64,000 bases of DNA from Scytolyngbya sp. HA4215-MV1 (GTDB lineage: Bacteria > Cyanobacteriota > Cyanobacteriia > Leptolyngbyales > Leptolyngbyaceae), in the NCBI GenBank assembly GCA_019359045.1, contig JAHHIA010000016.1:1-64000 (forward strand). The letters run 5' to 3'. Below are positions 1-11,564 of the stretch, one piece after another; positions within the stretch are counted from its first letter, which is position 1; every line of letters starts with the position of its first letter. The translations under genes and the position numbers were made by a program. Below the pieces are notes generated by a model that ran no database searches, had not been told where the DNA came from, and saw only the letters and a list, made by a program, of their open reading frames with translations.

Positions 1-111
1 TATTTCAACTGGATTTGGCAACACAGTCGCTTTAAAACCACTGCCGCTCAGAGAGCGGGATTAACGACGCGATCATGGAATTGGCGCGACATCGCTACTT
101 ACCCCACATTA
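1..111 (+). pseudogene. C-terminal remnant of a transposase-like gene
   Basis: Frame 1 is open from the window edge and reads a basic, Trp-rich peptide beginning YFNWIWQHSR and continuing with KTTAAQRAGL and a Trp-rich tail. This resembles the C-terminal end of insertion-sequence transposases in cyanobacteria, perhaps the IS1 group; the family is uncertain. The resemblance fades around position 111, where the same DNA enters the Mrr-like reading frame, although the formal stop in this frame is at 226-228. The simplest reading is that an insertion sequence landed in the 5' part of the Mrr-like gene. Confidence 0.35.
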
Positions 112-515
112 ATTTGACGCACTACCGTCTACTGCGTGAGTCTGGGTTTATCCAAGTTCAAGTTACAGGGAAATCTGGTGACGGCGGAATTGATGGGGTT
201 GGCATTGCCCGGATTAGTGGTTTCTTAAGCTTTCATGTGCTTTTTCAATGTAAGCGTTATCAAGGGTCAGTCACGGCAGGTCAAATTCGAGATTTTCGTG
301 GAGCCATGCAAGGGCGCACTGACAAGGGGTTGTTTATCACAACTGGCACATTCACCAGAGATGCGATCAAGGAGGCAACACGAGATGGGGCACCACCGAT
401 TGATTTAATCGATGGGGAACAGTTAGTCCAACGCTTGAAAGAGTTGGGGCTTGGTGTCAAGATCACAGTAATTGAGTCAGTGGAAGTTGACACAGATTGG
501 TTTGCAAAAATTTAA
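75..515 (+). CDS. Mrr-type restriction endonuclease domain protein, probably 5'-truncated
   Basis: This 146-residue protein has the Mrr catalytic core: a GDGGID segment with the metal-binding Asp at about residue 40, followed by a beta-strand with Gln58 and Lys60 (FQCKRY), the usual D-(Q/E)xK pattern. Mrr-family enzymes cleave foreign or modified DNA. The helix that normally precedes the core (an F-E-x-L-type segment) is missing, because the first residues are translated from transposase-like DNA; a stop at 33-35 prevents an earlier start. It may therefore be a disrupted gene with an intact catalytic core, or an active short form. As transposon cargo it would fit a defence role. It lies 15 bases upstream of the next small gene on the same strand. 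Confidence 0.68.
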   Translation: MELARHRYLPHINLTHYRLLRESGFIQVQVTGKSGDGGIDGVGIARISGFLSFHVLFQCKRYQGSVTAGQIRDFRGAMQGRTDKGLFITTGTFTRDAIKEATRDGAPPIDLIDGEQLVQRLKELGLGVKITVIESVEVDTDWFAKI

Positions 516-530
516 TGCAATGGGGGCTAA

Positions 531-773
531 ATGGTTAAAACTCTTAATAAACCATCTTCTTTAATCCACGAGATCCAGCTTGAAAAAGTTGGTGACTGGA
601 ATTTATTCAAATTCAGTGAGGCTCTTCAACTGCAAATGGAGAACCTTCTAGAAAAGAAAAAAGCCGATCAGATCACGCCCGATGAAATTGCTGAACTGGA
701 TGCGATCGGAGAATTAGATCGTATCTTTACCCATATCAACGCGATGCTTGCTGCTCAAAATGCCAATTCGTGA
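531..773 (+). CDS. Small hypothetical protein paired with an HNH nuclease gene
   Basis: The gene encodes 80 residues with no domain I recognise. The middle is a charged helix (MENLLEKKKADQ) followed by an Asp/Glu-rich stretch ending DAIGELDRIF, so it is probably a small helical cytoplasmic protein. Its stop codon overlaps the start of the HNH gene (ATG at 760), which implies translational coupling. Its role may be to accompany or regulate the nuclease, but this is inferred from position only. It is cargo of the Tn7-like element if the left end lies further upstream. Confidence 0.6.
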   Translation: MVKTLNKPSSLIHEIQLEKVGDWNLFKFSEALQLQMENLLEKKKADQITPDEIAELDAIGELDRIFTHINAMLAAQNANS

Positions 774-969
774 TGAACTCAAGCAGGCCATTCGAGAGCG
801 AGCCAAATATGTGTGCGAGTATTGCCATTCTCCGGAACGGTCGAGTGCCAATCGATTTACTGTTGATCATGTCATTCCAAAATCTTTGGGTGGTTCTGAT
901 GAACTTGATAATCTCGCACTTGCCTGTCGTCGCTGCAATGAGAGACGGTACAACTTTGTAGAGCTGTAA
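760..969 (+). CDS. HNH endonuclease, C-terminally truncated
   Basis: From ATG 760 the protein is about 69 residues. It shows a CxxC (CEYC), the HNH core VDHVIPKSLGG with the catalytic His, the central Asn of the LDNLALAC segment, and a second CxxC (CRRC). HNH proteins of this type usually continue well beyond the NERR motif; here the frame stops a few residues later at 967-969. The 3' part has been lost at the junction with the tniQ2 gene, whose last codons run antisense through this gene. A TTG at 748 would add four residues, but the ATG overlapping the upstream stop is the better start. The nuclease fold may be incomplete. Confidence 0.65.
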   Translation: MPIRDELKQAIRERAKYVCEYCHSPERSSANRFTVDHVIPKSLGGSDELDNLALACRRCNERRYNFVEL

Positions 970-2483
970 GTAGGAAGATGCTCATCTCGTAGCGATCGCT
1001 GCGTAGCAGTAGGATTTTTAGCTTGAGCACACAGCCATTCTGCCCGACGAGACTCTAATTCTTTTTGAGTGACTGTTTGTTTTTTTCTCGCTTTAGAAGT
1101 CACGTTAAAGTTAGGCTGCGTGAGTTTGCATCCTTTACCTTGCCCCTTTCGAGGAAATTGAAGCCCTAGACAGCTAGCCTGCCGTTTGATTGTATTGTGA
1201 CAACTATTAAGTCGCCGAGCAATCTCTCGCATACTTAATGATGAATCTTCCCAAAGTTCCTTCAATCTTCTGTCCCAGATATCTCCATAGGATTTGATCG
1301 TATCAAAACGGAATTGATCCTTTAAAGAGGCATCAGGTCCTTTTCGAGCATATGTGAAACCACAGACACAGTTAAAAATTCCGTATGGTTTTCTCTCGTG
1401 CTCCCCTGTATACACAAAATCAATTTGGCATTCGTTAGTCTGTAATCTTTGGAAAAATTGACAAGCAGGATTAAGACAGGGCCAAGGTCCTTCTCCAAAT
1501 GGCTTAGAGCCGACAACAGAATTTAAAGAATGCCTTGAGGCACAGTCCTTAAAGAACTCTTCTGCGGTATGACCCAAAAACTGAATCAGCAGAAGATGTC
1601 TTAAAGGATGATTTGTTTTGTTTAATCCGAAGTCTTTATGTAGACGAGCCAGCCAAGTGCTAGGTTTTTGCTCATCAACTTCACATTGAAGTTGTTTCAA
1701 GAGGTCGAAGGAGTAGTAGTTTTTGAAGGCACTCAGGAGTTTAGATACGTGTACTCTACTGTTCTCGTATGCTAATCCTCTTTCAGTCAGCAGGCTCAGA
1801 TAACACTTGCGTAAAATACTGAAACCCGGAACTAAACTGCGCTGCTCAAGCAACCAAGCAGCATCTTGAGCAATTTTAAGAAGAACATGATGATTAGAAT
1901 TGGATGAATCGAGTAAACGTGGTAACGCTCTAGAAAACCCTTGTTCAGCAGAAATTAAAACCTGGGTATTAACGCGATTCCGCATATATACGTTACTCTC
2001 TTGCAGGAAGACTTCATGAATTGGACAAACCTCAATGCCAGGCAATTGATGCAAACGATGCCAATAAAACTCACCATATTCTTTCCTATTTGATTCTGCA
2101 CAAACCAAACAGTATCTAAGTTTATTGGGCGTACGAATATTGCTTGGTGTAATTCCCGCAATCTTATGAACTGCTGAACCATTATTTCCTTGCATACTTG
2201 AGCGAAGACACTCTACTCGCTCTGTTGTTAGGAAAGGACTGTAGAAGGGTAATAATGTGTGCTTATCAAGCAAATAATCAACTGTGTAGCGATGTCCCGG
2301 TGGAAGTGCTGTAGTAAGATAAGCAAGACGAGTCGGCAAATCAATAGTTACCCCAGAACTGCTGCCAAACAACTCTTGAATTGTTGTATGCCCGCTGCCA
2401 AAATACATCATTCGATCGTGGTAACGAGCACAAACGCTGTACAGTAATTCATCGGGATAAGGGTTAGGGAAGCAACCTATCAT
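867..2483 (-). CDS. tniQ: TniQ/TnsD family target-selection protein, second copy (C-terminus foreign)
   Basis: This 538-residue protein starts MIGCFPNPYPDELLYSVCAR, almost identical to tniQ1, and keeps both zinc sites: CLVC with VCPIH near residues 125-160, and CLNPAC with CVCG near 340-375. TniQ/TnsD proteins select the insertion site and contact TnsC. Similarity to tniQ1 ends after the segment ESRRAEWLCAQA. The remaining 45 or so residues come from a HIP1-containing repeat and from antisense HNH sequence, so the native C-terminus has been replaced. The start has a good ribosome site (GGAGG). It sits 184 bases after tniQ1 and could have its own promoter. It may be a second target selector, or the TniQ of a CRISPR-associated transposon. 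Confidence 0.85.
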   Translation of the reverse strand: MIGCFPNPYPDELLYSVCARYHDRMMYFGSGHTTIQELFGSSSGVTIDLPTRLAYLTTALPPGHRYTVDYLLDKHTLLPFYSPFLTTERVECLRSSMQGNNGSAVHKIAGITPSNIRTPNKLRYCLVCAESNRKEYGEFYWHRLHQLPGIEVCPIHEVFLQESNVYMRNRVNTQVLISAEQGFSRALPRLLDSSNSNHHVLLKIAQDAAWLLEQRSLVPGFSILRKCYLSLLTERGLAYENSRVHVSKLLSAFKNYYSFDLLKQLQCEVDEQKPSTWLARLHKDFGLNKTNHPLRHLLLIQFLGHTAEEFFKDCASRHSLNSVVGSKPFGEGPWPCLNPACQFFQRLQTNECQIDFVYTGEHERKPYGIFNCVCGFTYARKGPDASLKDQFRFDTIKSYGDIWDRRLKELWEDSSLSMREIARRLNSCHNTIKRQASCLGLQFPRKGQGKGCKLTQPNFNVTSKARKKQTVTQKELESRRAEWLCAQAKNPTATQRSLRDEHLPTYSSTKLYRLSLQRRQASARLSSSSEPPKDFGMT

Positions 2484-2667
2484 TTAGGATGCCTCCAAAT
2501 ACTCAATCGTAAAATAAACAAAAGCTACGTGCATAAGCCCCTCTTACAAAGTATCAATACTTAGTCGTTTGCTCTGATTCAACTAGTTCTGAATGTCCTG
2601 TAAGACTATTGATAAACAGTTTTTGTAAGATGAGCACAACGACTACAACGTCATCTTCTCACCCGAA
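2484..2667 (-). promoter_or_regulatory. tniQ1-tniQ2 spacer with an imperfect inverted repeat
   Basis: The 184-base spacer contains arms CTTACAAA-GTATCAATA (2543-2559) and TATTGATA plus TTTGTAAG (2607-2614 and 2622-2629), which are near-complementary across about 85 bases. It is AT-rich and precedes the tniQ2 start. It could be an operator or promoter for tniQ2, or a hairpin ending the upstream operon. No TnsB-site-like repeat is seen here. Confidence 0.3.
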
Positions 2668-4635
2668 TCAAAAAGCCAATCGCTGAGACAAACGATCTCT
2701 GTCATCCCGTATCAGGATAATTTTTAGTGATTCTACCGCTTCTTCAAGGGCTTTTTGTACTATAGGCGACTCTTCTATTTCTGGTCGCAGGCTTGCTCTT
2801 CGTACTAATTGCCATCTTTGTGGGCAAATTCCTTCCTCCCTGTAGCATTCCACAACCCATTGAATTCGACGTAATGCAAAAGTTTCACGGTTTTCGATCA
2901 ACTCAGAAAGAACCTGTGCAGTGACCGGAAGCTTATCCAGATGGCGCTGAATCAAAGCTAGTTGCCCCAATTCTCGACCAATTGCTGCAATTGTAATTTG
3001 AGTTGGCTTGCTAGGTTTATTCTGTAAATGCAAAGCAGCTTGCCTTGCTGCACCCGCTAGTTCAATATCTCGGTTCTCCCAATCAACTCGCACAGCTGGG
3101 GAAGATTTTGCAAGCCGAGGTGGTAGATGCGCCTCCAACCATGCCCGATCGTTGCGATATAGCCATGTGTAGATTCTTTGAAATTGTTTTTTAAGTACGG
3201 TTCGTCCTACTTCACGATATTCCTGTCTTGCCGTTAACCATTCCTGTCGATATCGATTTAACGGGACTTCTGAAACCCCTGACTCCACTTCTGGAAGACA
3301 TGCCAAAGTTCGGCTCATTCGAGTAGTTTGTCGCTTCCCCTGTCGCGGAAACTCAAGTTCTAGTACAGCTGCATGAAGCTTAACGGTTGCCGCATCAACT
3401 CCAAGCTGACGAGCAATCTTACGTAGGCTAACAGATGAATCATACCAGAGCGTCTTGAGTGCATCATCCCAAATGGAGCCAAAAGCGCGAATTTTGGTAA
3501 TTCTCAGTGTATCCTCTTCAGATTCATCGGGCCCGGTACGACTGTAGACAAAGCCACAGGAGCAATAGAAAGTCCCGATCGGCTTACCATGTTCTTTGCT
3601 ATGGATTGCTTTGCATTCAGTGATTACAGGCTGTCGAAAATGATCGGCCGCTTTATTGAGGCAGAGCCACGGTCCTTTGCCAAAGGGCTTGAATTCTTTA
3701 GGCAACTTGAAGAATGATTCGGCTGTATACCCCAGGAACTGCATTAGGAGAAGATGACGTAACGGATGCTGCGATCCTTTAGGCGATCGCACCAACCGAA
3801 ACAACCAACTATGTTGGCTTTCAGCATCAATGCCACACTGAAGACTTTGTAGGAGATCATTTGGATAGAACTGATAAAACTCTCTGAGTAGTTCGCTAAC
3901 CCGTACTCTGCCGCTATAGGTGGCAAGATCTCGCTCTGCAAGAAGCTCACGGTAGCGTTTCAACAAAACCCCTAATCCAGGTGAGGAAGTGGTCTGTTTT
4001 AGCAGCCAAGCAGCATCTTGAGCTATTTTCAGTAGAATCTCATGATGGGGAATCAACAGACTGAATGAGCGTGACTTTGGCAATTGAATTCCCTGCTCTG
4101 CTGCAACAAACTCATGACGCGTCTGAGGATTCTGAATCCGAACTTGGCTATTCAATAGACGAACGTTGTGATCAGGACAGACCTCGATTCCTGGTAGTTG
4201 GTGAAGCCGATGCCAGTAGGACTCACCGAATTCTTGTTTATCTTGCCGCACACAAAGGGGGCAAAACCTGAGCCACTCTGGAGGCTGAACGATGCTTGCC
4301 ATAACACCAGAACGCATTTTAATGGCGGGTCCTCCTGCCCCTTCCATATCCGCCAAAAGTTGCTGAGCTTGTTCGGGATGCAAGAAAGGTGAGAAGAAAG
4401 GGAAGAGCGTATGACGATTGATTAAACGCTCAACTGTATGTGAGCTACCAATCGGTAAGGCTGAAACGAGACTACCAAGGTTACTGGGTAAATCAACAAT
4501 CGAGATCGCTGCCTCATCCCCGAACAACTCCCGTATGGTTCCCTTCTTATTGGAATACTGTACTCGTTGATGAAATCGAGCACAAACGCTATAGAGTAGT
4601 TCGTCTGGATAAGGATCGGGAAAGCATCCGATCAT
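2668..4635 (-). CDS. tnsD: TnsD/TniQ-type glmS target selector (long form)
   Basis: From ATG 4635 this protein has 655 residues and begins MIGCFPDPYPDELLYSVCAR. A TniQ domain fills the N-terminal third with a zinc site (CPLC and CPDH around residues 125-160). A second site near residue 345 has CLNKAADHF where tniQ2 has CLNPAC, so one ligand Cys appears lost, while CSCG remains. A helix-turn-helix-like part and a long C-terminal extension of about 200 residues follow. In Tn7, TnsD binds the 3' end of glmS and recruits TnsC; the insertion beside glmS makes this the likely homing factor. Its ATG shares one base with the tnsC stop (TGATG), and GGAGG lies just upstream. The TTG at 4638 is less likely. 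Confidence 0.88.
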   Translation of the reverse strand: MIGCFPDPYPDELLYSVCARFHQRVQYSNKKGTIRELFGDEAAISIVDLPSNLGSLVSALPIGSSHTVERLINRHTLFPFFSPFLHPEQAQQLLADMEGAGGPAIKMRSGVMASIVQPPEWLRFCPLCVRQDKQEFGESYWHRLHQLPGIEVCPDHNVRLLNSQVRIQNPQTRHEFVAAEQGIQLPKSRSFSLLIPHHEILLKIAQDAAWLLKQTTSSPGLGVLLKRYRELLAERDLATYSGRVRVSELLREFYQFYPNDLLQSLQCGIDAESQHSWLFRLVRSPKGSQHPLRHLLLMQFLGYTAESFFKLPKEFKPFGKGPWLCLNKAADHFRQPVITECKAIHSKEHGKPIGTFYCSCGFVYSRTGPDESEEDTLRITKIRAFGSIWDDALKTLWYDSSVSLRKIARQLGVDAATVKLHAAVLELEFPRQGKRQTTRMSRTLACLPEVESGVSEVPLNRYRQEWLTARQEYREVGRTVLKKQFQRIYTWLYRNDRAWLEAHLPPRLAKSSPAVRVDWENRDIELAGAARQAALHLQNKPSKPTQITIAAIGRELGQLALIQRHLDKLPVTAQVLSELIENRETFALRRIQWVVECYREEGICPQRWQLVRRASLRPEIEESPIVQKALEEAVESLKIILIRDDRDRLSQRLAF

Positions 4636-6185
4636 CAAGATACCTCCTCCCCAAAATACTCTATGACAGGGCGAATGAGTCCTGCTTGTCGAAGAGCTTC
4701 ATAGGCTCTGAGCTTTTGTTTCTCTCCTGATGCTGCAATTTCGGGTAAACTTCCTTCCAAGGGGGCAGTTTTCTTGCGTCTTCCAGAACCTTTTTTGACG
4801 GTTTCAGTAGCCGCTATCTGTGGCTCTGTTGCATCAATGGTGGCTGGAGGCAGTTGTTTGTTGAGATTGGTTGTTTGTACACTGCCTGATGCTTGATGCT
4901 GTTCAGCTCTACTCAATTGGTTTTGGGCATTTTGTAAAAACTGATCGATGTCAATGGGATGAACATCCTCAACGCTGGCAAGAAGCCGAGTGTCTTTATT
5001 TTTCAGAGCTTGTAGAATGGGGTACGCCAATCGTAAGCTTTCTTTAGCCACGAGTCGAATTCCTTGCTCGGTTACAACTTCTTCGCCATTTGCAATCGCC
5101 CGAATTTGAGCCAGCATGTAGACTTTAATGGCAAAGTCAGTAATACCTTGCGTCACCTCATACAGCGCATCGCGCAGTTCTTGGGTGGAGCGACATTGCT
5201 TTCTAACATATTGATATCCCCACAAACACTTGACGAACCATTTCCACTTATCGTCATTCTTCATCCTGTCCCAGACAAGGTCACCCTGCCCTGTACCTCT
5301 CCGGGCTTGTCGAAACTCTCCGCGGAGCACAGAGATTGCTTTATAAGTACCAACAAGTACTACTGGTAGACCAATCGTATTGATTAACTGAACGAAAAAA
5401 TTCAGCATTTTGCTGGAACCGCCACTTTTGGCTTGGCTAAGGTGCTGGATTTCATCAATGACCAGTACACCGATCGAGTGAAGAGACGCAACCAGCGCCA
5501 TACGCGGCAGCAATTCGTCTACTGTTTTACGACCACCTGCATAGTTGTCGTAGTAACGAGTGCCGAGCAGGTCATCTACTGCCTGGAAAAAGTTTAAGCA
5601 TAAGCCCTTGATCGAACCGTCAAAGGGACAATCTAGCTTAAGCCAGACAATTTGAGTGAAACTAAAATCGCGATCTTGGTAGTGACTATGGAAGATAACC
5701 TGCGGATACAAAAGCAGAATCGCTTCTATCGATGTGGTCTTACCAACTCCGCTAATGCCAACAATAGTAAATCCTGTTGCGGTTGAACGAGGGGATTGGC
5801 GAACTGTACCTAAAGAGTGAACCCGCGACTTCACATCCCCCCAAAAACCTGTAATTGCGGGATTCCGTGCCTGATATCCTAGCCGAATCATTCGGGAAAA
5901 CCGTTGCTCCAGATCAAAATGAATCGGTAAAGGAGCAAAAAACTGCAAAGTATTTTGAATCAAATGTAGCCGAAGATAGGCAGGCATCTTACGATGCTCT
6001 TCGTCATAATCTGGATAGAATGCAAGACGTTCTGCTACTTCATCCTGGGTGATGAAGATAGGAGGGAGAGCTTCAATCAAGGGATTCCCTTGATAGGTTG
6101 GAATGACCGGAACGAGGTAAGTTGCCTGTTCAACTCTACCCTTTCCTACTAAAAGAGACGGGATATGTTGACTACTCATCATCAT
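4635..6185 (-). CDS. tnsC: TnsC-type AAA+ ATPase, transposition regulator
   Basis: The 516-residue protein has a Walker A motif GISGVGKTT (about residues 143-151) and a Walker B motif VLVIDE (about 240-245), followed by sensor-type residues. TnsC links the target-selection protein to the TnsAB transposase and confers target immunity in Tn7. The N-terminal 120 residues and the C-terminal 150 residues lie outside the ATPase core; the tail is rich in Gln, Ala and Thr and probably flexible. Three ATG codons in a row (6185, 6182, 6179) make the exact start uncertain. The first overlaps the tnsB end by 14 bases, and the stop overlaps the tnsD start by one base. Confidence 0.93.
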   Translation of the reverse strand: MMMSSQHIPSLLVGKGRVEQATYLVPVIPTYQGNPLIEALPPIFITQDEVAERLAFYPDYDEEHRKMPAYLRLHLIQNTLQFFAPLPIHFDLEQRFSRMIRLGYQARNPAITGFWGDVKSRVHSLGTVRQSPRSTATGFTIVGISGVGKTTSIEAILLLYPQVIFHSHYQDRDFSFTQIVWLKLDCPFDGSIKGLCLNFFQAVDDLLGTRYYDNYAGGRKTVDELLPRMALVASLHSIGVLVIDEIQHLSQAKSGGSSKMLNFFVQLINTIGLPVVLVGTYKAISVLRGEFRQARRGTGQGDLVWDRMKNDDKWKWFVKCLWGYQYVRKQCRSTQELRDALYEVTQGITDFAIKVYMLAQIRAIANGEEVVTEQGIRLVAKESLRLAYPILQALKNKDTRLLASVEDVHPIDIDQFLQNAQNQLSRAEQHQASGSVQTTNLNKQLPPATIDATEPQIAATETVKKGSGRRKKTAPLEGSLPEIAASGEKQKLRAYEALRQAGLIRPVIEYFGEEVS

Positions 6186-8457
6186 CGCTCCACATTTTTG
6201 GACGCAGTTTATGCAATCTTTCGATTAGCTGGGATTGCGGGACATGGGTTGAGTCTTCTTGATTGTGACTGTCAATTGGCTCAGTGTCGGAAACTTCATG
6301 CTGAGGCTCTTCAGCATTCTTACTTGGTTCTGGTTCTGACACTTTAGATGGAACAATCAGAGGAATCACCTTGCCGGAATGATCAGTAAGCGGCTTTTCT
6401 CCCAATTGCCAAGCTTGAGCTTCGCGTTCCATGTCGCGTTCTTCTTGACGATTCGACCGGATGCCCTTGATGCGCGATCGCTTACTCTGCCCTGTCACCT
6501 GCTCCAGCGCCGTCGAGGTTTGTTCCTTACCTTCATTGATTATCTGCTCCATTTGAGCATTCAGCACAGCACTGGATTGCTGCTTACGACTTCTAGACAA
6601 TTCCTTTTGCTGCTTGCGAGTTTCAAAGTAATCAAGAGTTTCATACAAATCTCGCCCTCGGAAGGTATGTTCTGCATCAATCAACTGGCAACACTCCAGC
6701 CGTTGTCCTCCATCAAGACGCAAATAGATATCACTTAGGCTACGAGGATCGTAAGCTACATCAATTTTCCAACTTCCTCGTTCTCTAGCCCTTACAAACC
6801 ACTGCTCTCGTAAAGCTAGATCGCAAGAGTAAAATAAGCCCTTAAACCGGATACCGCGATAAGTAACAGAAACTCGCTCCGAAGGTAAAAGATTCAAGCG
6901 CAGAATGTCACGGGACTTAACCCTCAAGTGTCCTGCCCGGTTACGAATGCCCCAGTTCCATAGATCTAGGGGATATGGTTCAACGTGCTCTTGGATCATG
7001 AACTCATCCATGCGATACCAATCCATCCGGTGTTCTTTGTTATGGTCTAAGATCGCAAGAATCATGAGCTTCCGGAATTGATGCAAATCCAGCACAGCAT
7101 CAAGGCGGTAATCATTGTCTCCACGCTCATGCGGTTTATAAACAGCTCCCGGCATCCAATGAATGACTTTGTCATTACTCAAGCGGAAGTTGCGCTCTAC
7201 AATCCCTTTCCAATCTGCTCGGTAGGGAGGAGTGTTAGAAACGGTCACATTTAAGGCTTTGACAAGATTATCAGCGTTATAACCCTCTAATTCGCCTCGG
7301 TCTGCAAGAATGACTTCCGGCAAATGACGACAAGGCCAGTCTTCTTCTGCAATCTCAACTCCATATTCTTGGCAAAATGCAACTTTATCAATTGCTGCAT
7401 TTTCTAATGCCTGCATTGCCCCTAGCCAACTTGGTCCTTCTAGACTGACACTCAATCCTGTAATCATCCTGCTGAAAACGTCAATTAGAACATAAATCAC
7501 AGGGCGACCAATGATTCGGGTTCGATCGAGCGAACTTACCAAATAGATATCACCAATCGTTGCGTCTATCTGATAAATGGAGCCTGGACCGAAAGCCATC
7601 TGAGTTGAATCTCCCAGTACCTCTCGGTGGCGCAAATTATAACGGCGTTTTCCTTCTCTTGACGTAAGGGCTTGCGTTGCATCTCGCTCCTTTTCATACC
7701 AGTAGCGAAATTGCCCAAATGTTGGCAGTTCGTGGGCTGGTGGTAGACAAGGAACTAAAGCCCCGTTGGAAGAAAGCGTGTAGCCTTTATGAAAATGTTT
7801 CTCGAGTGTTTTCTGAAATGCATCTTGAAGTGTTCGTCCCTGACCATTCTCATAAAATTGACGAACGCCCCGATTAAATTTCTCTCGTATCTTGTCGTCT
7901 ACATTCACACCTACTGGTATTTGAGTAATTTTGCTAATTTTGTTGGGGCGTCCTCGCTTCTTCTCCCGGCTTTTACGCTCTTTCCCAGGTGCACCACACT
8001 TATCAAAAAGAGGTAAGAGAGCATTTCTGACCTGCCCTCCCTGCCAGTAGCGTCTGAGATACTTATACAAGGTCATTTTCGTGCAGCCCGTCTTTTCAAC
8101 CCAGGCATTCAAAAGCGCTCCACGACCGTGGGAAAAGAAGATACGCCCATCTTTACCCTCTACTAAAGGAGCGATGACCTCCCATGCTTGGTCTCTCCGT
8201 TCTCGGTGTTTTTTGGGGATAGTATCTTCAGGCTTGAGGAGAGAGGCATAAGGATCAACTTCTAAAACCTGAGCTTGCTGTGACGAGATCGCCTCTTCCA
8301 ATTCTTTACATTTCTGCCAAATAGGGAGTGCTTTCGGATTCAGTAATTCAATAGTGGCTACGTCTGTATAGGAAGAGTCAACCCAGAGTAATCGTTCAAT
8401 ACGAGAAGCTTCAGTTTCACTCTGCCACTCTAAAAGCATGTTGACAAAAAGTTTCAT
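6172..8457 (-). CDS. tnsB: TnsB transposase (DDE recombinase)
   Basis: This 761-residue protein carries the catalytic triad Asp298 (YQIDAT), Asp386 (VILADRG) and Glu421 (KGIVERNF). The spacings of 88 and 35 residues equal those of E. coli TnsB. It would bind the element's terminal repeats and join the 3' ends to target DNA. The N-terminal part contains helix-turn-helix-like DNA-binding regions; after the rve core come a beta-barrel domain and a charged, Gln/Ser-rich tail of about 150 residues that probably contacts TnsC. Start and stop overlap the neighbours (ATGA with tnsA, 14 bases with tnsC), so the operon is translationally coupled. Confidence 0.95.
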   Translation of the reverse strand: MKLFVNMLLEWQSETEASRIERLLWVDSSYTDVATIELLNPKALPIWQKCKELEEAISSQQAQVLEVDPYASLLKPEDTIPKKHRERRDQAWEVIAPLVEGKDGRIFFSHGRGALLNAWVEKTGCTKMTLYKYLRRYWQGGQVRNALLPLFDKCGAPGKERKSREKKRGRPNKISKITQIPVGVNVDDKIREKFNRGVRQFYENGQGRTLQDAFQKTLEKHFHKGYTLSSNGALVPCLPPAHELPTFGQFRYWYEKERDATQALTSREGKRRYNLRHREVLGDSTQMAFGPGSIYQIDATIGDIYLVSSLDRTRIIGRPVIYVLIDVFSRMITGLSVSLEGPSWLGAMQALENAAIDKVAFCQEYGVEIAEEDWPCRHLPEVILADRGELEGYNADNLVKALNVTVSNTPPYRADWKGIVERNFRLSNDKVIHWMPGAVYKPHERGDNDYRLDAVLDLHQFRKLMILAILDHNKEHRMDWYRMDEFMIQEHVEPYPLDLWNWGIRNRAGHLRVKSRDILRLNLLPSERVSVTYRGIRFKGLFYSCDLALREQWFVRARERGSWKIDVAYDPRSLSDIYLRLDGGQRLECCQLIDAEHTFRGRDLYETLDYFETRKQQKELSRSRKQQSSAVLNAQMEQIINEGKEQTSTALEQVTGQSKRSRIKGIRSNRQEERDMEREAQAWQLGEKPLTDHSGKVIPLIVPSKVSEPEPSKNAEEPQHEVSDTEPIDSHNQEDSTHVPQSQLIERLHKLRPKMWSDDDE

Positions 8458-9299
8458 CCCACGCCTCCTAGCTCCTGATACGAACCTGCTGATGAAATAG
8501 ACAGGAGCGTGAGTACCCTACTTGGTTGGATGCGATGGCTCATATCAACTTGCCATCGACGATTGGCAATAAGGTAACGGACAACCGATAGGCTTACTCC
8601 AGGAGAGAGTCCTAATTGATCATCACATGTGTTAGTGATTCTAGTTAGCGCTGTTTTCTCTTGTAAAACCTGTGGCGTTAGAACTGCTTCAATTCGTGTA
8701 ATGTCATCTTGATTGAGTGGTGCTAAATCGTTGAGCCAGTAACAAGAGCGCAGCCATTTAAGGTTTTCAACAAAGGTTTTGGGGATTTCTTTCTCGGTAA
8801 CAACTCCCCAATCAATATTCCGACGTTTCCAGTAAAGCCGCTCAATCTCCAGTTTCTCTAAAGTTCGTTGTGATTGAAGATCAGCGACAGGTTTAATGGC
8901 ACGAGCTTTTTCTATCTCGTGATCACTCTGTTTCAGAGTAATCAAAAAATCTGTGGTCATTACCACGGATTGTTGGGTTTGAGGATCAGTAGGATGGATA
9001 TATTCACATTGTTCTGCAATTTGCTGAGTTTCCTCCAACGGCAGTAGAGGAAATTGCTCTCGGATATCCAACACCGATTGTGACCAATCTAAAACGTAGA
9101 AATAGCTGGTCTCCAATTGGCTCAACAAATGATGGTCTCTGCCAGTCTTCCAACCTTTGACTCGACTGGCTAATCCCTGAGAAGGAACATCCTGAATTTG
9201 GAGCCAAGGTTGGTACTTGGCTCCTCTACCACTACCACGGCGCTCCTTCAGTCGTTGCTCAACTTTCTGCTGATTGGTACTCCGATTACGTTTAGCCAT
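8454..9299 (-). CDS. tnsA: TnsA endonuclease
   Basis: Counting from ATG 9299, the protein has 281 residues and an N-terminal endonuclease domain with Glu63 (QLETSYF), Asp117 (TTDFLI) and Lys136 (ARAIKPV). This matches the Glu63-Asp114-Lys132 active site of E. coli TnsA, and the C-terminal half is the TnsC/TnsB contact domain. TnsA cuts the non-transferred strands so that the element moves by cut-and-paste. Separate TnsA and TnsB genes distinguish this element from TnsAB-fusion and TnsA-less (type V-K) transposons. A TTG at 9320 could add seven residues; neither start has a clear Shine-Dalgarno sequence. The gene is followed by an ATGA overlap with tnsB. Confidence 0.92.
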   Translation of the reverse strand: MAKRNRSTNQQKVEQRLKERRGSGRGAKYQPWLQIQDVPSQGLASRVKGWKTGRDHHLLSQLETSYFYVLDWSQSVLDIREQFPLLPLEETQQIAEQCEYIHPTDPQTQQSVVMTTDFLITLKQSDHEIEKARAIKPVADLQSQRTLEKLEIERLYWKRRNIDWGVVTEKEIPKTFVENLKWLRSCYWLNDLAPLNQDDITRIEAVLTPQVLQEKTALTRITNTCDDQLGLSPGVSLSVVRYLIANRRWQVDMSHRIQPSRVLTLLSISSAGSYQELGGVG

Positions 9300-9345
9300 T
9301 GGGTTAATGCTGTCTAACAAATCTAGTAAATCTAGACGCTAGAAA

Positions 9346-9465
9346 GCGTTCTACTGGTACAAACTTTCTAGTTCTCCCAGTATAGAGCCTAATTTGCTAG
9401 TATCCAAGTTTATTTCGCGGTATATGACATTATTTGCCAGTAGACAAGTTTATTTGCGTTTTACA
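9346..9465. repeat. Transposon right end with TnsB-site-like repeats
   Basis: Two copies of a 30-base motif lie exactly 40 bases apart, at 9391-9420 and 9431-9460, sharing the core ATTTGCYAGTAKMCAAGTTT. A weaker third copy is visible around 9351-9375. Read from the glmS side the element begins with 5'-TGTAAAACGC, with the TGT terminus usual for Tn7-like ends. Tn7 right ends carry several closely spaced TnsB sites beside tnsA, which is what is seen here. Confidence 0.75.
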
Positions 9466-9492
9466 TTATTGGGAAAGGTGCAAGATCTGAGC
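9466..9492. other. attTn7-like insertion site downstream of glmS
   Basis: The five bases next to the terminal ACA (ttatt, 9466-9470) are the expected right copy of the target duplication. They lie 22-26 bases past the glmS stop, which is the classical Tn7 attachment position. The second copy should flank the left end outside this window. Confidence 0.7.
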
Positions 9493-11387
9493 TATTCTAC
9501 CGTTACCGATTTTGCCAAATTTCTTGGCTGATCCACGTCCAAGCCTCGGCGCGCCGCAATGTGATAGGACAACAATTGCAGCGGAATCACCGTAATAATC
9601 GGCGACAAAATCTCTGCCACATGGGGCACCGGAATCACCGTATCAAACGTCTCCGCTGCTTCCTGTTCATCCATCGGCGTCACGCCAATCAACCGGGCAT
9701 CCCGCGCTCTAGCTTCCTGGGCATTCGAGAGCACCTTCTCAAACACGCCACCGGGCATTGCGATCGTCACCACCGGCACCTTGGCATCTAGCAACGCAAT
9801 CGGACCATGCTTCATCTCTCCGGCAGGATAGCCTTCCGCATGGATATAGCTAATTTCCTTCAGCTTTAGCGCCCCTTCCAGGGCGATCGGGAAATTGATG
9901 CCCCGTCCCAAAAAGATAAAGTCCTGCGTCTCCGCAAAATCGTGCGCCAGTTGTTCAATGTAACGCTCCTGGCTTTCCAGCACCGACTCAATCTGCGCGG
10001 GCAGTTGCCGCAGCCCTGCCAACATCTCCTCTGTCTCCACCGGAGACAGGGTTTGGCGGTGGAATGCCAAGTCGATCGCCAGAGCATAAAACGCCATCAG
10101 TTGCCCGATAAAGGTCTTGGTGGCTGCGACACCAATCTCAATCCCCGCATGGGTATCGATAATGTGAGGCACTAGATGCCCCAGGGAACTTTCGGGACGG
10201 TTAGTAATGCCCAGCAAGCGCGCCTGATAGTCGCCACCATGCATGGCACGGCGTTGCTTTTCCATCTCCAGCGCTGCCAGGGTATCTGCCGTTTCACCCG
10301 ATTGCGTCACCCCGATCGTCAGCGTATTCGGCACCAGCGGTGCAGGCGAATAGCGAAATTCTGATGCATACTGCACTTGAGTGGGCAGTTCCGCAATTTG
10401 CTCCAGCAAATATTTACCCACCAGACTGGCGTGCCAACTGGTGCCACAAGCCACGATCTGAATATGTTCCAAATGGGCGTAGAACGAATCGGGTAAGTTC
10501 AAGCGCACCGGGGAGTGCATGTGGTCAGCTGCACTCCATTCCGCATCAAAATATGCTTCCAGACAGGCTCGTACCACCCCCGGCTGTTCGTAAATTTCTT
10601 TCAGCATGAAGTGCTTAAAGCCCTGTTTCTCCACCATCACCGGGTTCCAGCTCAGGGTGCGGGGATACTTCTTCAGCCGTTGTCCTTCAAAACTATAGAC
10701 TTCCACTCCCAACGGAGTTAGGCGCGCCAGTTCACCATTCTCCAGGGTCAACACGGCTTGGGTATAAGGCACTAGCGCTGGTGTATCCGATGCACAATAA
10801 AATTCACCCTGCCCAAAGCCGATCGACAGGGGGGCTTGTTGCCGCGCCACGATCAGTTCATCGGGATGATCCGCAGAAATGACGGCGATCGCAAAGGCTC
10901 CTTGCAGTTGATTCACTGCCTGTCGCACCGCCTCCAGTAATGGCGAAGTGTTGGCCGATGCCGCAGGCAGATGCTTCAGAATTTCGGCAATCAGATGGGG
11001 AATTACCTCGGTGTCGGTTTCTGATCGAAACTCGTGCCCTTTCTGCTTCAGGTCTTCTCGCAGTTCCCGATAGTTCTCAATAATGCCATTCTGCACCACT
11101 GCCAACCGCCGCGCCGTGTCCATATGGGGATGGGCGTTATATTCTTCCGGTTTGCCATGGGTTGCCCAGCGGGTGTGCCCAATGCCCAAGCGGGCGGGAT
11201 TGTTTTGCCCTTCTAGCTTCTCTTGCAGGTTGTGGAGCTTGCCCTTGGCGCGAACGCAATGAATTTCGCCTTCCAAGACCGTGGCAATCCCTGCCGAGTC
11301 GTATCCTCGATACTCTAGCTTTCGTAACCCTTCCAGGAGGATGTCACTTGCTGTCCGGGTGCCAATGTAGCCAACAATTCCACACAT
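9492..11387 (-). CDS. glmS: Glutamine-fructose-6-phosphate aminotransferase (isomerizing)
   Basis: GlmS makes glucosamine-6-phosphate from fructose-6-phosphate and glutamine, the first step to UDP-GlcNAc and peptidoglycan. The 631-residue protein starts MCGIVGYIG, exposing the N-terminal Cys nucleophile of the class II amidotransferase domain. Two SIS sugar-isomerase domains follow, with the motifs SGETADTLAAL and GATKTFIGQ-like, and it ends LAKSVTVE as in the family. The reading frame is open 45 codons further upstream, but ATG 11387 is right because of the required Cys and an AGGAG ribosome site. The intact 3' end serves as the attachment sequence for the Tn7-like element, and the insertion separates glmS from any native terminator. 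Confidence 0.97.
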   Translation of the reverse strand: MCGIVGYIGTRTASDILLEGLRKLEYRGYDSAGIATVLEGEIHCVRAKGKLHNLQEKLEGQNNPARLGIGHTRWATHGKPEEYNAHPHMDTARRLAVVQNGIIENYRELREDLKQKGHEFRSETDTEVIPHLIAEILKHLPAASANTSPLLEAVRQAVNQLQGAFAIAVISADHPDELIVARQQAPLSIGFGQGEFYCASDTPALVPYTQAVLTLENGELARLTPLGVEVYSFEGQRLKKYPRTLSWNPVMVEKQGFKHFMLKEIYEQPGVVRACLEAYFDAEWSAADHMHSPVRLNLPDSFYAHLEHIQIVACGTSWHASLVGKYLLEQIAELPTQVQYASEFRYSPAPLVPNTLTIGVTQSGETADTLAALEMEKQRRAMHGGDYQARLLGITNRPESSLGHLVPHIIDTHAGIEIGVAATKTFIGQLMAFYALAIDLAFHRQTLSPVETEEMLAGLRQLPAQIESVLESQERYIEQLAHDFAETQDFIFLGRGINFPIALEGALKLKEISYIHAEGYPAGEMKHGPIALLDAKVPVVTIAMPGGVFEKVLSNAQEARARDARLIGVTPMDEQEAAETFDTVIPVPHVAEILSPIITVIPLQLLSYHIAARRGLDVDQPRNLAKSVTVE

Positions 11388-11564
11388 GAACTTGCATCTC
11401 CTAGTAACCTGCTCATCAGGGGGTAGCAATCTGCGATCGATCCGGGCTGAGTCGATCCGTGCTTTGCAAACTTCCTCATCAAGTCTAAGGTTTAAAGCCA
11501 GGAGATGGAGAAATTGATACACAACAAAGCGATCGCACAGGGGTCAACACAGCTTTAAGGTTGC

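Follow-up and report, generated by a model that had tools for sequence, protein, structure and literature searches.

We analysed a 64,000-nt window from Scytolyngbya sp. HA4215-MV1, comprising the initial 64 kb of contig C20 (JAHHIA010000016.1) in a 33-contig genome; window position 1 is therefore the start of the contig. According to table values, the completeness of this genome is 99.99 and its contamination is 0. The minus strand carries tnsA, tnsB, tnsC, tniQ1 (tnsD1) and tniQ2 (tnsD2), with glmS adjoining. An Mrr-like remnant, an 80-aa ORF and an HNH ORF lie on the plus strand, to the left of the tns operon. The features are as follows.

1..126, plus strand: 3′ end of an IS, with a transposase C-terminus in the frame at 1–114; copies elsewhere in the genome; the contig starts here
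127..515, plus strand: remnant of an Mrr-like restriction endonuclease gene, last ~130 of ~286 residues (Pfam Mrr_cat, 3.8e-27)
531..773, plus strand: intact 80-aa ORF of the Mrr/HNH gene set; it adjoins HNH in 29/29 HNH loci compared
760..961, plus strand: HNH remnant, 67 of 150 residues (Pfam HNH, 3.2e-17; ungapped match to L017/L134)
867..961, minus strand: new 31-residue tniQ2 tail (residues 508–538) and stop codon, read from antisense HNH DNA
961..962, no strand: well-supported recombination junction between HNH and tniQ2, where both homologies end
962..2483, minus strand: tniQ2/tnsD2 remnant, residues 1–507 (Pfam TniQ, 3.9e-22; TnsD, 1.8e-65)
2668..4635, minus strand: tniQ1/tnsD1, intact, 655 aa (Pfam TnsD, positions 1–355 of 355)
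4635..6185, minus strand: tnsC (Pfam AAA_22, TniB)
6172..8457, minus strand: tnsB (Pfam Mu-transpos_C; homology to FACHB-63)
8454..9299, minus strand: tnsA (Pfam TnsA N and C domains)
9372..9465, minus strand: Tn7-like right end with the terminal TGT at 9465; three clear and one weak TnsB-like site in 20-bp steps
9492..11522, minus strand: glmS, the attachment gene, ORF bounds as listed (Pfam SIS, GATase)

The ends of Tn7 have four right-end sites, three left-end sites, a terminal TGT and a 5-bp target duplication. Like Tn7 and other glmS-targeting Tn7-like elements, the window has tnsA, tnsB, tnsC and tnsD in the same gene order and a right end whose TnsB-like sites, at 20-bp steps, lie beside the glmS stop codon (9494–9492, 26 bp from the right end). 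The four sites score 31.3, 29.5, 22.6 and 11.1 with a matrix trained on 12 sites, three from the window itself and the rest from relatives. The window differs from these elements in carrying two TnsD genes, of which the second is cut short by its fusion to HNH DNA, and in that no left end was found. NCBIfam named no tns protein at its cut-offs, and Rfam gave no match at gathering score within window 1–9500.

A scan of the genome collection for comparable loci returned 19 stretches with the pattern and one confirmed locus, on contig JACJNX010000133.1 of Cyanobacteria bacterium FACHB-63, which we take to be contig C39 of genome G406. This relative is collinear with the window and likewise lies beside a glmS end. 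The elements on FACHB-63 C39, on FACHB-63 C90 and in G416 each have four right-end and three spaced left-end sites, and in G416 the bases AGATC are seen by eye at both flanks. A second tnsA (L131:64–714) is present immediately beyond the left end of the element on FACHB-63 C39, which suggests tandem Tn7-like elements. In addition, two different Tn7-like elements of FACHB-63, on C39 (L004:1–84) and C90 (L122), abut an identical glmS 3′ end (84/84 bases), as would arise from a duplicated glmS end, mixed strains or an assembly effect.

When the whole genome was scanned with two simple patterns and the window with the matrix, no certain left end was found, the window containing none; the right-end cluster (C20:9372–9455) was the only full cluster of sites. 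Two left-end-like TnsB sites occur 67 bp apart beside a transposase-like ORF (L172; C7:33820 and 33887), perhaps a relic of another Tn7-like element; the site at C7:33820 was rejected as the mate of our right end, since its terminus and flank differ. Among empty sites downstream of glmS, no common neighbour was seen (first 150 bases of 29 relatives, with ORFs listed for nine of them), so that the left flank of the window's element is not predictable from these relatives.

The plus-strand genes belong to a set that is complete elsewhere. In G278 the Mrr gene, the 80-aa ORF and the HNH gene occupy L134:9575–11130, possibly as a small defence module, between ORFs that by eye resemble ordinary chromosomal genes; tblastn matches show the same order in G213. 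The 80-aa ORF matched no PADLOC family. The five closest Mrr homologues have frames of 287–300 aa, and the ORF in L134 is an intact 286 aa. The 5′ part of the window's Mrr gene is evidently removed by the IS at 126. The missing Mrr N-terminal part was not found elsewhere in the genome, in a search run without a positive control. Because the Mrr gene too is broken, by an IS, this side of the element appears to be decaying.

The IS stretch at 1–126/127 has 100% identical copies at the ends of three other contigs (C30, C27 and C10), the shared stretch ending at ~126 in all three, and copies of 84–88% in C23 and C5. Identical copies at three other contig ends indicate that this IS probably breaks the assembly. 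Its 37-residue C-terminus was read by eye as that of a transposase; Pfam gave no match.

The HNH gene and tniQ2 run in opposite directions and are cut at the same place, as the original prediction had stated. We located the cut by aligning each side with an intact counterpart. Window positions 126–961 match L017, which represents the intact Mrr/80-aa ORF/HNH locus of G278, at 774 of 836 bases (93%) and without a gap, and the HNH homology stops at 961. From the other side, homology to FACHB-63 DNA is collinear from window position 9300 down to 967 by blastn, and the printed alignment, read by eye, extends tniQ2 homology to 962. The two homologies thus end within 1 bp of each other, at 961/962. 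The recombination junction that had been proposed is real; its position near 1010, where tniQ2 had been said to lose similarity on comparison with tniQ1, has to be moved ~45 bp further left. The paired ending of two long homologies at one spot is evidently not a chance effect.

Both genes read across this break. The HNH ORF, from its ATG at 760, continues past 961 into tniQ2-derived DNA and stops at a TAA at 967–969, right after its last CxxC region, just where its end had been predicted. Conversely, the final codons of tniQ2 are antisense HNH DNA, again as anticipated; they amount to 31 residues (508–538) by our count, in place of the ~45 proposed. The HIP1-containing stretch had also been counted as joined DNA. 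That part is mistaken: the HIP1 octamer begins at 992, 30 bp inside tniQ2-homologous DNA, where FACHB-63 has ACGATCGC, and HIP1 was rejected as a recombination site on the same grounds.

Alignment with full-length homologues, which had been suggested as a check, showed that both genes are longer elsewhere. An HNH search in a sample of 386 genomes of the phylum matched 95, our own included. We compared the frames of 29 higher-ranked loci besides the window's own; the lower-ranked matches include frames of 46–105 aa. Beyond the residues YNF, the window's frame has three further residues (VEL), whereas all 29 others are longer: 44 residues in L019, 72 in L026 and 82–87 in the remaining 27. Relative to the ~150-aa cyanobacterial HNH family, the window's protein keeps the core and lacks the C-terminal half of ~80 residues, having lost 83 of 150 residues compared with L134.

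Similarly, the window's tniQ2 encodes 538 residues compared with 662 in FACHB-63, and the last ~154 residues of the intact protein are gone. Over 504 aligned residues the two proteins are 81.0% identical, with no internal stop. A family search for tniQ2 in 42 genomes (threshold 1e-30) matched 10, our own included; the matching frames span 582–677 aa except the window's, apart from two partial matches in frames of 365 and 318 aa. Repeating the search at order level with the full FACHB-63 TnsD2 (1e-60) matched nine of 42 genomes, again in frames of 582–677 aa except the window's; these are the same 42 genomes, hence the result is not independent. In the phylum sample, seven of 386 genomes matched, the distant matches including frames of 284–500 aa. 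The Pfam TnsD model, a test for a full-length selector, is covered over positions 1–274 of 355 by the window's tniQ2 and over 1–355 by tniQ1 and both FACHB-63 proteins. The comparison homologues of HNH and tniQ2 come from other genera. Since longer versions of both genes exist elsewhere, a recombination junction that cost both their 3′ ends is well supported by these alignments. The two short forms were found side by side in none of the relatives examined.

What tniQ2 has lost was approached with an AlphaFold model of FACHB-63 TnsD2, which was built from four sequences (mean pLDDT 51.7) and is usable in parts of its C-terminal half, with pLDDT of 67–82 in the blocks at 471–520 and 67–90 in those at 541–660. 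A structural look-up of the model returned Tn7 TnsD first (Z 10.5, rmsd 9.1, 129 aligned; Z 9.8, rmsd 3.0, 118 aligned), followed by many helix-turn-helix (HTH) proteins that match ~396–448 with Z of at most 6.0. The model has an HTH-like set of helices at 474–520 and a well-modelled helical region at 539–661. Helices 496–502 and 504–513 resemble an HTH, the latter being the helix that is cut. Another predicted HTH, at 396–448, is modelled less confidently and is kept in the window's TniQ2. Passages of two sources (PMC10293859; PMC11406308) ascribe site recognition to the C-terminal region of TnsD; the first, by Faure et al., describes there long C-terminal regions that fold into several HTH domains and might confer site recognition on TnsD. 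With the rest of its DNA-binding region missing, the window's TnsD2 has most probably lost the ability to select a target.

The surviving tniQ2 codons have changed no faster than those of FACHB-63, nine of nine Tajima relative-rate tests being non-significant, so that either the truncation is recent or the remainder is still selected. For tnsD1, three of four such tests were significant, with FACHB-63 the faster.

We then considered how the two sides were joined. Around the break, the two parent sides agree in register over no more than 3 nt in a row. They do share the 8-bp word GGTACAAC, which lies no more than 25 bp from the break on either side and is shifted by ~6 bp relative to the register; since a common word of at least 8 bp is found in 2.8% of random pairs, short homology near the break may have helped the join. 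Recombination between repeats was rejected: window 1–2600 has no direct repeat of at least 20 nt, and the 8-bp word is out of register. An IS-mediated deletion at 961 was also set aside, as the only IS end that could be recognised is the one at 126, none being apparent at the junction. The exact junction word had no match in viral contigs, and a megablast of window 100–2500 against phages matched none.

The original prediction had also raised the question of whether cas genes once lay at the junction. This idea finds no support, although the DNA lost from the window's own genome may still have carried cas genes. In FACHB-63, the intact tnsD2 encodes a long protein of TnsD type and not a short TniQ as in CASTs; next to it come two restriction-helicase fragments, and then glycosyltransferase, transporter and transposase genes. 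This cargo yielded no convincing cas gene in an analysis in which PADLOC covered 10 of the 22 ORFs of at least 110 aa and the other 12 were inspected by eye. CRISPR-related PADLOC labels there are partial only, namely typeIV_DinG on a helicase fragment (8.8e-4) and CARF-LolE fusion matches on a MacB/FtsX permease (1e-7 and 2.2e-5). As a check for a CRISPR array, direct repeats of at least 20 nt were sought, and there are none in window 1–2600; DNA beyond the contig start is outside view.

Based on these comparisons, we consider that the junction originated by illegitimate deletion in a Tn7-like element inserted downstream of glmS, with a probability of roughly 85%. On this reading of the alignments, a deletion on the cargo side of the tns operon would have brought the middle of HNH and the 3′ part of tnsD2 together in a tail-to-tail arrangement. 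The DNA lost would comprise the 3′ half of HNH, the last ~154 codons of tnsD2 and whatever lay between, the HNH gene presumably being cargo. TnsD2 is left with a tail of 31 residues of antisense HNH, cut within a predicted helix-turn-helix and probably without function; TnsD1, the probable glmS selector, is intact. Against this reading, a genome with the arrangement from before the deletion was not found: ten tniQ regions (L066–L075) and L004 had no Mrr, 80-aa ORF or HNH match at E 1e-4. The lack of a certain left end and the unraised rate of change in the surviving tniQ2 codons likewise count against it.

A variant of the deletion reading, compatible with it, is that the event also took the left end and the remaining cargo, so that HNH and Mrr would be flanking chromosome and the element one-ended and immobile. 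The lone right-end cluster in the genome and window scans is consistent with this variant, as are the chromosomal-looking ORFs around the gene set in G278 and the different terminus and flank of the sole left-end-like pair noticed, on C7. On the other hand, the contig start cuts the window, and a left end may be present in DNA that was not assembled or not recognised; such ends have variable sites, and only simple patterns were used to scan the genome. Moreover, passages in PMC8649781 give restriction-modification as the kind of defence cargo that Tn7-like elements carry most often. We regard a lost left end as possible but rather doubtful.

An assembly chimera, in which two unlinked sequences were falsely joined at the contig end, might be suspected at a junction 961 bp from the contig start. 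Against this, the junction DNA is single-copy, a query of 700–2500 matching itself and two short tniQ1 stretches only in its own genome, so neither side has a second copy in the assembly. Nor does the missing TnsD2 C-terminus lie stranded on another contig, being absent from the genome except as its tnsD1 paralogue, and the completeness and contamination values speak against misjoining; we judge a chimera very improbable. Even less credence is due to the proposal that both genes simply end here in this lineage: they lose homology at the same base, and the nearest counterparts of each in other genera have greater length. The comparison is without another genome of the genus, and some distant HNH and TniQ frames are short, as given above; we nevertheless consider a normal end of both genes next to impossible.

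The truncated TniQ2 could, alternatively, still work, either by binding TnsC as a short adaptor that makes no choice of site or by inhibiting TnsD1. It keeps the N-terminal core and the predicted HTH at 396–448, has no internal stop and no raised rate, and in CASTs the core makes up most of TniQ, as passages of PMC10293859 describe. Its tail is accidental antisense DNA, however, no second case was seen among the relatives examined, and nothing suggests a partner such as Cascade. A working protein is accordingly about as unlikely as a chimera. Slightly less likely again is the narrower idea that a full TnsD-type selector has become a short TniQ-like adaptor, which would still recruit TnsC and would have lost its own site choice. 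If it were true, the locus would be a natural snapshot of how TnsD-type proteins are freed for takeover by another targeting system.

The element has two TnsD-type genes, one of them cut. In a tree of 16 TnsD/TniQ proteins, the window's tnsD1 forms a clade with five others (support 100/100). Of these six, five are next to glmS (the window, FACHB-63 C39, FACHB-63 C90, G416 and G418), the C39 contig end being read as the last 27 GlmS residues; in the sixth, G405, glmS is on another contig. G416, G418 and FACHB-63 C90 have a single tnsD gene in the regions fetched. Because most of the clade adjoins glmS and includes single-tnsD elements there, tnsD1 is probably the glmS selector and tnsD2 a second one. 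In these three single-tnsD regions (L067, L068 and L069, from FACHB-63 C90, G418 and G416), a conserved protein of at most 522 aa follows tnsD directly, in the place of tnsD2, and is perhaps a distant TnsE. Pfam (two of the three scanned) and PDB gave no match for it, two weak plasmid matches had no useful name, and there was no TnsE annotation in the two plasmid regions looked at.

In the tree, the tnsD2 clade consists of the window and FACHB-63 proteins, which are much closer than the rest of the two elements. Synonymous differences between the elements, as proportions, are 0.78 for tnsA, 0.79 for tnsB, 0.72 for tnsC and 0.60 for tnsD1, compared with 0.36 for tnsD2 (bootstrap 95%, 0.31–0.42). 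Per 150-column DNA block, identity is 47–84% up to the start of tnsD2 and 82–89% in the ten full blocks after 2457. In the tree, the tnsD1 of FACHB-63 groups with that of G416, which is without tnsD2, and not with the window's (100/100). Since tnsD2 is far less diverged than the other four tns genes, the simplest reading of these values is that it was probably exchanged between elements separately and more recently than the rest. Such an exchange fits the modularity already described in passages of PMC10293859.

Among known systems, the locus resembles the dual tniQ-tnsD Tn7-like elements in its tandem of two TnsD-type genes, a kind named among 1,048 tandem-gene loci in a passage of Faure et al. 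2023 (PMC10293859); the window's second gene differs in being without its C-terminal region, which is intact in FACHB-63. With Type I-B1 CASTs, as a passage of PMC11406308 presents them, it shares a cyanobacterial host and a glmS-homing TnsD accompanied by a second TniQ-family protein. It differs from them in that this second protein is of the long TnsD type in FACHB-63 and that the 10 of 22 cargo ORFs covered by PADLOC hold no convincing cas gene.

The junction is best read as the commonplace scar of a deletion, in a part of a Tn7-like element that is decaying, and is of little importance by itself. It suggests that a dual-TnsD element can stay at glmS without its second TnsD. Together with the probable separate exchange of tnsD2, the scar would add one more example of target selectors as swappable modules.
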